Assembly (NCBI GenBank): GCA_020628935.1
Contig: JAHDEG010000008.1
Coordinates: 62,001 to 126,000, forward strand
Source of the DNA: Flavobacteriales bacterium
GTDB lineage: Bacteria; Bacteroidota; Bacteroidia; Flavobacteriales_G; JALEGO01
Reading direction: 5' to 3'
DNA length: 64,000 bases
Shown piece by piece: positions 19,617-43,892 of this stretch; position 1 is the stretch's first letter; every line of letters begins with the position of its first letter. The position numbers were made by a program, and so were the translations under genes. The notes under the pieces were generated by a model. That model was given only the letters and a program-made list of their open reading frames with translations, ran no database searches and was not told the origin of the DNA.

Positions 19617-20156
19617 CTAAAGCTTTCGCCCCTTAGCAACTCTTGTTTGCCTTTTAATTTTATTGAGCTTACTCATTTTAAACTTTAAGTAAATATTGCT
19701 TGCACCCTGGTTGGCATAATATTCATTACCACCATATAATAAAACAGCTCTGTTGTTTTCCCATTTAGGAGCAAGTAATGTGTAATTTGCTTTTCTATTG
19801 TTAGGGTCACCAAAAACTAAATATTTACCATCATCTTCAAACGAAATACCAATTCTTTGATTGTCAACTGATTTTTCTAAAACTCCCGGTGTACCAGCTT
19901 TAATAATTACTTGATCATAAGCTTTTCCTGTCGTTATTTTTAAGGTTCCATCTTGTGTTTTTTTTGTTTTTTTATCCTCTTCAACTCTCGTTAATACAAT
20001 ATCATTAGAGTTATAAAACTGCAGTAGTTTTAATTCATTTTCAGAAAGATCGTATTGTTCTCTAATAGTTTGAGTAAAAGGAATTCTGGGTGCACAAGAC
20101 TGTATTAAAGTGGCTATAATTAAAAAAGCTCCTAAATTAAAAATGAATTTATTCAT
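19617..20156 (-). CDS. Putative lipoprotein of unknown function
   Basis: The best start is ATG 20156, giving 179 residues (MNKFIFNLGAFLIIATLIQSC) with a lipobox Cys. The longer frame from 20183 adds nine residues that spoil the signal. After the Cys there is a region with PRIPFTQTIREQYDLSENELKLLQFYNSNDI, then a beta-rich body and a strongly basic C-terminus (about eight Lys or Arg in the last 20). No family is recognised with certainty. A TAACTTTG -7-like box lies upstream on this strand. Convergent with gcvP across the hairpin element. Confidence 0.75.
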   Translation of the reverse strand: MNKFIFNLGAFLIIATLIQSCAPRIPFTQTIREQYDLSENELKLLQFYNSNDIVLTRVEEDKKTKKTQDGTLKITTGKAYDQVIIKAGTPGVLEKSVDNQRIGISFEDDGKYLVFGDPNNRKANYTLLAPKWENNRAVLLYGGNEYYANQGASNIYLKFKMSKLNKIKRQTRVAKGRKL

Positions 20157-20192
20157 TGTAGTTGTTTTGTTATGTAAGTTCAAATACTATAC

Positions 20193-20200
20193 CAAAGTTA
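20193..20200 (-). promoter_or_regulatory. Candidate -7 box for the lipoprotein gene at 19617-20156
   Basis: On the minus strand this reads TAACTTTG, a perfect TAnnTTTG match, 36 bases upstream of the chosen ATG at 20156. No convincing -33 TTG at the usual spacing. Confidence 0.4.
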
Positions 20201-41226: not shown

Positions 41227-41234
41227 AATGTTTT

Positions 41235-41326
41235 TCTTTTGCTTTGATGCGAAAGGAAGCTGAGATCGGGTCTTGCGTTCTTTCGAAAGGTTGCTATTCA
41301 ATCTTCTTGGCCTTTTCGCATCCAAA
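41235..41326. repeat. Hairpin element, copy A
   Basis: TCTTTTGC and GCGAAAGGA form an imperfect short hairpin around TTTGAT (about 41235-41258). A longer-range inverted repeat joins TTTGATGCGAAAGG (41243-41256) with CCTTTTCGCATCCAAA (41311-41326). It is the most degenerate of three similar elements around dnaK. A CTTTCGAAAG palindrome lies inside at 41280-41289. Confidence 0.5.
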
Positions 41327-41475
41327 CTCGCTGTGCTCAAACAGAGGGTGCTTTCGCGCATGCCTGCGCTAAAGAATATTAAATGTAATGCTAGTTAAAT
41401 TTACTGAAGGCCGAGTGTTTATTTGTTTGGTTTCTTTGATTGATTTGAGTTTGGTAAATGGAATGTCTGATTATT

Positions 41476-41611
41476 ATTCTTTTGTCTTGACACAAAAGAA
41501 TCAAAAAATCAAGACTTACTATAATAACATCAATAACTCTTGATTAAACCTAAGTGCAGTCAAGTGATCTTCGAGCCAAGCTCTCAGCTTCTTGATTTTA
41601 CTAAGGTTTAA
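41476..41611. repeat. Hairpin element, copy B
   Basis: Perfect nine-base arms ATTCTTTTG (41476-41484) and CAAAAGAAT (41493-41501) enclose TCTTGACA. The loop's TCTTGA is complementary to TCAAGA at 41509-41514, so a pseudoknot or alternative hairpin is possible. Further on, TTAAACCTAAG (41544-41554) pairs with CTAAGGTTTAA (41601-41611) with one mismatch. The layout matches copy C beyond dnaK, with different arm sequences. Confidence 0.6.
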
Positions 41612-41841
41612 TGCTTCGACTAATTACTGTTATTCTAGAATGTCGAGGGGGTGTTGATTAGTTATTTCTAGCCCCGGTTGAAACGGTTAGCTTGTGCTTT
41701 TTTACTTGATATAATTATATGCTTTTTGAGAAAGCGATTTTATGAGCTTTTGCAAAGTGCAATATAACTTCAGGTAAAATAGTACAACTAGTAGTGTAAA
41801 ACGGGAGTAGCTTCTAAGGTTTTAAAACGTGTGATTATGTC

Positions 41842-41941
41842 TTTTTGTCACTTTTGTCATTCTAAAATGCCTTTGTTTGCAGTACGTTTTTACAATATGT
41901 CATGAATTTTAAGAGTGTAACGGGCTGGCACAGTGATTGAT
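41842..41941 (+). promoter_or_regulatory. dnaK control region: TGTCA boxes and sigma-54-like -24/-12 promoter
   Basis: TTTTTGTCA (41842-41850) and TTTTGTCA (41852-41859) form a direct repeat, and another ATGTCAT lies at 41898-41904. TGGCAC (41926-41931) and TTGAT (41937-41941) have the five-base spacing of a -24/-12 element, with GG and GA exactly 12 bases apart. Only the final C of TTGC is replaced by A. This would start transcription near 41951, about 28 bases before the dnaK ATG. No TAnnTTTG box is closer to the gene. Confidence 0.5.
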
Positions 41942-41978
41942 CTAAGGGTAATAAATTATTAATTAAAAAAAACACAAG

Positions 41979-43892
41979 ATGGGAAAAATTATCGGAATAG
42001 ATTTAGGTACTACCAATTCCTGTGTTGCAGTAATGGAAGGTAATGAGCCTGTAGTTATCCCAAATAGCGAAGGTAAAAGAACCACTCCATCTGTTGTAGC
42101 ATTTGTTGAAGGTGGCGAAAGAAAAGTAGGAGATCCTGCTAAGAGACAAGCAATTACAAATCCTCAAAAAACAGTTTCTTCTATAAAGAGATTTATGGGG
42201 AACAGATTTGATGAGGTTTCTAAGGAAATAGGAAGAGTGCCTTACGAAGTTGTAAAGGGTAAAAACAATACGGCAAGAGTTAAAATTGATGATAGAGAGT
42301 ATACGCCTCAAGAGATTTCGGCAATGGTGCTTCAAAAAATGAAGAAAACGGCTGAAGATTATTTAGGAACTTCTGTTTCTGAGGCTGTTATTACTGTGCC
42401 TGCATATTTTAATGATGCTCAAAGACAAGCTACCAAAGAAGCTGGTGAAATTGCTGGTTTAGCTGTTAAAAGAATTATTAACGAACCTACTGCAGCGGCT
42501 CTTTCTTACGGCTTAGATAAGAAAGGTAAAGACATGAAAATTGTTGTGTTTGACTGCGGTGGTGGTACGCATGATGTTTCTATTTTAGAGCTCGGTGATG
42601 GCGTTTTTGAAGTTAAATCTACTGATGGTGATACGCACCTTGGTGGTGACGATTTTGATCAGGTAGTTATTAATTGGTTAGCTGATGAGTTTTTAAAGGA
42701 TGAAAACTTAGATTTAAGAAAAGATCCGATGGCGTTACAGCGTTTAAAAGAGGCTGCTGAAAAAGCTAAAGTTGAGCTTTCAAGCACAACTTCTACGGAG
42801 ATTAATTTACCTTATATTATGCCCGTTGATGGTGTGCCAAAGCACTTGGTTAGAACACTTTCTAGAGCAAAATTTGAGCAATTAGCTGACAGTTTAATAA
42901 AAAGAACAATTGAGCCATGTAAATCTGCACTTAAAAATGCGGGTATGAGCACAAGCGATATTGATGAGATTATTTTAGTTGGTGGTTCTACTCGTATACC
43001 AGCGGTTCAAGAGGCTGTGAAGTCTTTCTTTGGAAAAGAGCCTTCTAAAGGTGTTAACCCTGATGAGGTTGTTGCTGTTGGGGCGGCTATTCAAGGTGGT
43101 GTATTAACTGGTGAGGTAAAAGATGTTCTTTTATTAGACGTTACTCCTCTTTCTTTTGGTATTGAAACTATGGGTGGCGTTTATGATGTGTTAATTGAGT
43201 CTAACTCTACTATACCATCTAAAAAGTCAAAAATATATTCTACTGCTAGTGATAACCAGCCATCTGTTGAGGTTCATATTTTACAAGGTGAGCGCCCAAT
43301 GGCTAAAGATAACCGTTCGTTAGGTCGTTTTCACTTAGATGGAATTCCACCAGCACCAAGAGGTGTGCCGCAAATTGAAGTTACTTTTGATATTGATGCG
43401 AATGGTATTTTAAATGTATCGTCTAAAGACAAAGGTACTGGTAAAGAGCAAAGTATTAGAATTGAAGCAGGTAGCGGTCTTTCTCAAGAAGAAATTGATA
43501 AAATGAAGCAAGAAGCTGAAGCTAACGCTGCAGAAGATGCTAAAGAGAAGGAAAAGGCTGATAAAATTAACCAGGCTGATTCACTGATTTTTCAAACAGA
43601 GAAGTCATTGAAAGATTATGGTGGTAAAATACCTGCTGAGAAAAAGCAACCTATTGAAGATGCTTTAGCGGAACTTAAAACTGCTTACGAAGCTAAAGAC
43701 CTTGATAAGATTACGACTACTATGGAAACGTTAAATACGGTTTTCCAAGCGGCTTCTCAAGAAATGTATGCGGCTCAGCAAGCGGCTGAAGGTGGTGCTA
43801 CTGCAGATGCAGGTGATGCTTCTGATGCTACAGCTGATGCAACTGCAGAAGAAGTTACCGATGTTGAATACGAAGAGGTAGATAACAAGTAA
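41979..43892 (+). CDS. dnaK: Chaperone protein DnaK (Hsp70)
   Basis: ATP-driven chaperone of 637 residues that folds nascent and stress-damaged proteins with DnaJ and GrpE. The N-terminal ATPase domain starts [20 protein letters not shown]. The phosphate-2 loop reads [20 protein letters not shown], a Cys and His variant of the usual DLGGGTFD that I have seen in Flavobacteriia. The hydrophobic linker [15 protein letters not shown] separates the substrate-binding domain. The C-terminus ends VEYEEVDNK after an Ala/Asp-rich tail. dnaJ and grpE are not adjacent. It has its own promoter and a strong terminator, so it is a single-gene transcript. Confidence 0.98.

Follow-up and report, generated by a model that had tools for sequence, protein, structure and literature searches.

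The window analysed here, a 64 kb stretch of DNA (G000:C10:62001-126000), comes from a 2.13 Mb genome assembly that is 82%-complete. It carries on the forward (+) strand a dnaK gene (41979..43892) whose 637 aa product is a full-length DnaK, scoring above the cut-off against both the PRK00290 and TIGR02350 models of NCBIfam. The phosphate-binding motif of this protein (residues 192-201, window positions 42552-42581) differs from DLGGGTFDVS and has the form that is commonest among relatives (49/80). A search for Rfam leader elements upstream of dnaK returned no match.

Preceding the gene on the same strand is a sigma-54-like promoter sequence, TGGCACAGTGATTGA, found at 41926-41940, 53 nt 5' of the dnaK ATG (41979). 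Consensus match and conservation identify TGGCAC (41926..41931) as the -24 element, which is followed by the spacer AGTGA and a -12 element, TTGA (41937..41940), a lineage variant of TTGC recognized from base counts in dnaK and groES promoters. The GG (41927-41928) and GA (41939-41940) are 12 apart, and the site has the GG at -24 and G at -13, with N10 between them (TGGCAY-N5-TTG), that characterize sigma-54 promoters; the C at -12 that is usual, though not absolute, in such promoters is here an A. With zero mismatches, TGGCACNNNNNTTGM occurs in the 64 kb window solely at the dnaK promoter site, and YTGGCACNNNNNTTGA has two exact matches in the genome, the dnaK site and a second that was set aside because it lies within a coding frame. 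Farther upstream, TGTCA boxes start at 41846, 41855 and 41898. The first two (41846-41850 and 41855-41859) form a TGNCA-N4-TGNCA pair on the + strand, annotated as a distal upstream activator site (41846..41859) from the enrichment of box pairs in relatives, and the proximal box (41898..41902, +), 23 nt 5' of the -24 element, corresponds to a second box cluster in relatives. The first-pass annotation of this DNA had described TGGCAC-N5-TTGAT with its 12-base spacing, the TTGA in place of TTGC, and the repeated TGTCA upstream, and all of these were confirmed. Sigma-54 promoter geometry would place the start of dnaK transcription 12 nt 3' of the -12 base, giving a predicted, A-rich 5' untranslated leader of ~27 nt (41952..41978, +).

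Conservation of the -24/-12 element and its -12 base

When the 180 nt preceding the dnaK ATG are dinucleotide-shuffled, the chance of a match to TGGYAY-N5-TTGM is 0.0016, and that of at least three TGWCA boxes is 0.0046. Taken alone, these single-locus values are modest evidence, and it is conservation in relatives that is decisive. We collected 80 dnaK loci from other Bacteroidota genomes, 79 of which had usable upstream sequences, and the strict TGGYAY-N5-TTGM motif is present in 72 of the 79, compared to an expectation, which ignores kinship among the genomes, of 0.235 (maximum of 2 in 200 shuffles). The remaining seven show small variants, such as AGGCAC-N5-TTGA, CGGCAC-N5-TTGA, and TTGG or TTGT at -12. 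The distance from motif to ATG in these relatives varies from 39 to 152 nt, indicating that the element itself is conserved and not the whole region, as mere similarity would have it. A loose consensus may be matched by chance in AT-rich DNA, and across the window the number of consensus matches with two mismatches does not exceed chance (68, with 76 expected). However, the dnaK match is correctly placed, and its retention in so many relatives, where about 0.2 would be expected, leaves a chance origin with a negligible probability; we regard it as ruled out by conservation across the dnaK upstream regions.

Expression of dnaK is needed in the absence of stress as well, and its main promoter might be of the housekeeping sigma-ABfr type (TTTG / TAnnTTTG), with the sigma-54 site being secondary or reserved for special conditions. 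The mapped promoters of Bacteroides are mostly of the sigma-ABfr type (PMC7366714). However, no TAnnTTTG that could serve at -7, with or without a TTG element, occurs in 41227-41990, and the conserved element in dnaK upstream regions is the -24/-12 sequence, which makes a housekeeping main promoter distinctly unlikely. The sigma-ABfr candidate was rejected for lack of an upstream match.

The gene for sigma-54, rpoN, was found in 388 of 392 genomes of the phylum, and that of the source genome (G000:C10:158362) encodes both the helix-turn-helix (HTH) and the RpoN box. The base at -12 is A in 60 of 75 dnaK promoters and C in 12, and for groES promoters the corresponding values are 27/35 and 2/35. 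Judged by these counts, TTGA is the usual form in this lineage and not a defect. The part of sigma-54 that reads the -12 region is the HTH (Merrick and Chambers 1992, as cited in PMC3162934). In E. coli, the -12-reading helix is MHESTISRV (HESTISR), with E at 378, and in Bacteroidota it reads DISTxSR or DVSTxxR, so that I or V stands at the position of E. coli E378 in all 29 of the 29 sequences where the helix was found. The correlation suggests that this replacement (E378I/V) probably underlies the A at -12. Some sigma-54 proteins, among them the Rhodobacter sphaeroides and Bradyrhizobium japonicum paralogs, are known to have natural promoters that differ only at one base, -11 or -12 (PMC3162934), but the Bacteroidota change is phylum-wide and matched by a fixed residue change in RpoN. 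One genome (G366) has the promoter and no detectable rpoN, perhaps reflecting an incomplete assembly. Joint loss of rpoN and the motif was considered as a test and is uninformative, since rpoN is near-universal and the genomes lacking it are possibly incomplete. Programs that predict sigma-54 promoters after training on TTGC may therefore overlook targets in Bacteroidota, where A stands at -12.

Upstream boxes and a candidate activator

TGTCA or TGACA is present in 72 of 75 Bacteroidota dnaK upstream regions, where 24 are expected, and paired boxes are more strongly enriched: TGNCA-N3-TGNCA occurs in 38 of 76 dnaK promoters (0.13 expected), pairs with a gap of 7 in 20 (0.2 expected) and pairs with a gap of 4 in five (0.33 expected). 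In relatives the boxes fall into two clusters relative to the -24 element, one at about -100 to -60 and the other at -40 to -20. The starts of the distal boxes of the source dnaK are 9 nt apart, the commonest spacing among relatives being 8. Boxes at ~25 nt are nearer to the -24 element than is usual for a classical enhancer, which counts against their being an activator site of that kind.

The source genome was covered by pattern and family searches together with individually retrieved stretches. In it, TGTCA boxes precede dnaK, hsp20 and groES. Another five intergenic sites resemble sigma-54 promoters, at 36-47 nt from genes for OmpH/Skp-like, lipoprotein and response-regulator-like proteins and two further genes (names judged by eye from the protein sequences) downstream of them, and these sites have no such boxes. 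The boxes therefore appear to mark chaperone genes rather than sigma-54 promoters in general. One of the sigma-54-like sites, TGGTATAGTATTTGA (20180-20194 of the window, - strand), precedes a lipoprotein-like gene (19617-20183) and, as it is without TGWCA boxes, is probably served by another activator. The gene for the OmpH/Skp-like periplasmic chaperone (G000:C4) has TGGCATTATATTTGA 39 nt 5' of its start, also without TGWCA boxes. When a box pair and the promoter were combined into a single search pattern, 60 genomes of the class yielded two matches, the first upstream of hsp20 and the second upstream of dnaK (control matches: 1). This low number is attributable to variable spacing, and the pattern is too strict for a de novo search of the regulon.

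A sigma-54 promoter with an upstream activator site calls for an enhancer-binding protein, and the source genome, besides the TGNCA boxes, encodes four strong sigma-54 activators. Three have receiver domains, one of these being without an HTH, and the fourth (G000:C17:198171-199403, 411 aa) is the sole member of the set to lack a receiver domain. It consists of an AAA+ domain (residues 12-178), a lid (185-263), a variable linker of ~100 aa and a Fis-type HTH (368-408). A signal domain is missing from its N terminus, and it scored above the cut-off of no NCBIfam equivalog, PspF included. The gene order around it is miaB - activator - lptE - hypothetical - secG - groES - groEL, and the miaB-activator-lptE...groES order recurs, with small differences, in all 13 of the relatives compared; in many other genomes of the class, too, the activator gene is flanked by miaB and lptE and followed by groES. 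The position between miaB and lptE is kept more widely than the groES neighborhood, and in families f3 and f4 groES was not found beside the activator. A single ortholog at the cut-off used, full-length or nearly so and with 55–65% identity, was detected in each of the 28 same-class genomes searched, and more distant orthologs (about 45–50% identity) are present in other classes. The core of the HTH, GI[ST]ERTLYRK, is almost invariant and is kept in other classes too.

From its neighborhood, its universality and the elimination of other candidates, the best inference is that the receiver-less activator of the miaB-lptE locus binds the TGNCA boxes. Alternatively, the promoter may be a sigma-54 promoter whose boxes are bound by a response-regulator activator or by a protein that is not an enhancer-binding protein, the miaB-lptE activator serving a gene such as lptE. 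The three receiver-domain activators of the source genome offer candidates for this, and the activator gene stays at miaB-lptE even where groES is not adjacent. On the other hand, the presence of the receiver-less activator in every same-class genome searched matches the near-universal boxes, its HTH core is conserved in other classes where the boxes are also conserved, and one of the three competitors lacks a DNA-binding domain. We consider binding of the boxes by another protein unlikely. The preferred candidate resembles activators of the PspF/HrpR type in having AAA+ and HTH domains without a separate signal domain (type Ic, PMC3162934), but differs from them in being encoded with miaB, lptE and groESL, and in the ~100-aa variable linker before the HTH.

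Other heat-shock genes and HrcA/CIRCE

The source groES is preceded by TGTCACAATGTCATTTAGCTGACA and TTGGCATAGAAAATG, and the source hsp20 by TGGTATTCCATTTGA and two boxes. Among 41 non-redundant groES upstream regions, TGGCAY-N6-TG was found in 35, a TGWCA box in 40 and a TGNCA-N3-TGNCA pair in 33. The source assembly, at its 82% completeness, has no clpB, and in relatives the element upstream of clpB is a weaker GG-N10-GA/GT, in which TGGAMT frequently replaces TGGCAY. The first-pass suggestion that the dnaK layout recurs before other heat-shock genes thus holds for groES and hsp20, and for clpB only in this weaker form. A palindrome like AGACAWWWWGTCT, unlike the TGNCA boxes, was seen upstream of clpB, and may belong to a second activator. 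The weaker -24 element and the different palindrome of clpB indicate that one activator does not fit every heat-shock gene. Outside the class, the hsp20-dnaK operons of family f19 have TGWCA boxes and TGGCAC-N5-TTGA, -TTGC or -TTGT, so the arrangement probably predates the class; most genomes of this family also encode HrcA.

HrcA was detected in 111 of 198 genomes, every one of them outside the class of the window, and none was found in the source genome or in about 49 same-class genomes (a total counted from the genome listing). The best match to CIRCE upstream of dnaK has seven mismatches in 18 positions, in agreement with the first-pass annotation, which had seen no CIRCE-like repeat. As neither hrcA nor CIRCE was found, HrcA/CIRCE control of the source dnaK was rejected. 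The replacement of HrcA/CIRCE by an RpoN-type system, also proposed in that annotation, gains support from the presence of rpoN and activators, and from the fact that no same-class genome examined had HrcA. Coexistence of the sigma-54 promoter with HrcA outside the class counts against this explanation.

A proposed sigma-54 chaperone regulon

The results computed here comprise the promoter motif, the operator architecture, the layout common to three chaperone genes, and the presence of rpoN and the activator. On this basis, we consider it likely that dnaK is driven from a sigma-54 (RpoN) promoter, with an activator site upstream of it, as part of a chaperone regulon of dnaK, groESL and hsp20 in Bacteroidota. 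The dnaK, groES and Hsp20 genes of this phylum would then appear to be controlled by sigma-54 and a dedicated TGTCA-box activator, and not by sigma-32 or HrcA. The target genes (dnaK, groESL, hsp20) are shared with sigma-32 (RpoH) and HrcA/CIRCE control; the differences from HrcA/CIRCE are that HrcA is missing from the source and same-class genomes, that CIRCE is missing, and that the proposed sigma-54 control is positive.

In the proposed mechanism, RpoN-polymerase would sit at TGGCAY-N5-NTGA as a closed complex, and an AAA+ activator on TGNCA boxes about 25-100 nt upstream would use ATP to open it. ATP-driven opening by a bound activator is established for sigma-54 systems generally. The likeliest activator would be the receiver-less protein of the miaB-lptE locus, upstream of groESL. 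Without a receiver domain, the usual switching by a kinase is not possible, and we infer that the trigger is heat or unfolded protein, perhaps acting via release from a chaperone or other inhibitor. More speculatively, the inactive activator may be held by a partner, and a chaperone as partner would give a feedback loop. We tentatively suggest, at somewhat less than even confidence, a further type of heat-shock control, in which a dedicated receiver-less activator (miaB/lptE/groESL) is set directly by chaperone availability and acts on TGNCA-N3-TGNCA before dnaK, groESL and hsp20, in combination with a sigma-54 whose -12 preference has changed from C to A via position 378.

Sigma-54 control of Bacteroidota chaperones, the main claim, is not new and was predicted earlier (PMC12316311, PLoS One 2025). 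That article reports enrichment of GroEL, GroES, GrpE, DnaJ, DnaK and IbpA among the sigma-54 targets it predicts for Bacteroidota, most strongly in Flavobacteriia, and it states, citing Sabree et al. 2009 (PNAS), that GrpE and GroES depend on sigma-54 in two species. Its consensus is TGGCACN5-7TTGCT, and the sections consulted describe for Bacteroidota no upstream operator, dedicated activator, TTGA variant or sigma-54 residue change. Neither the operator nor the candidate activator was found in the literature searched, which was mostly outside subscription journals, and the same holds for the preference for A at -12 and the replacement at E378. Bacteroidota are a dominant phylum of gut and marine systems, and their chaperone control is poorly described in the literature searched. 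The data now name the promoter class, its operator and a single candidate regulator conserved through the class, so that one knockout could address the question.

The boxes of dnaK, groES and hsp20 often lie inside an apparent terminator hairpin of the preceding gene, an overlap which suggests that one sequence may have two functions.
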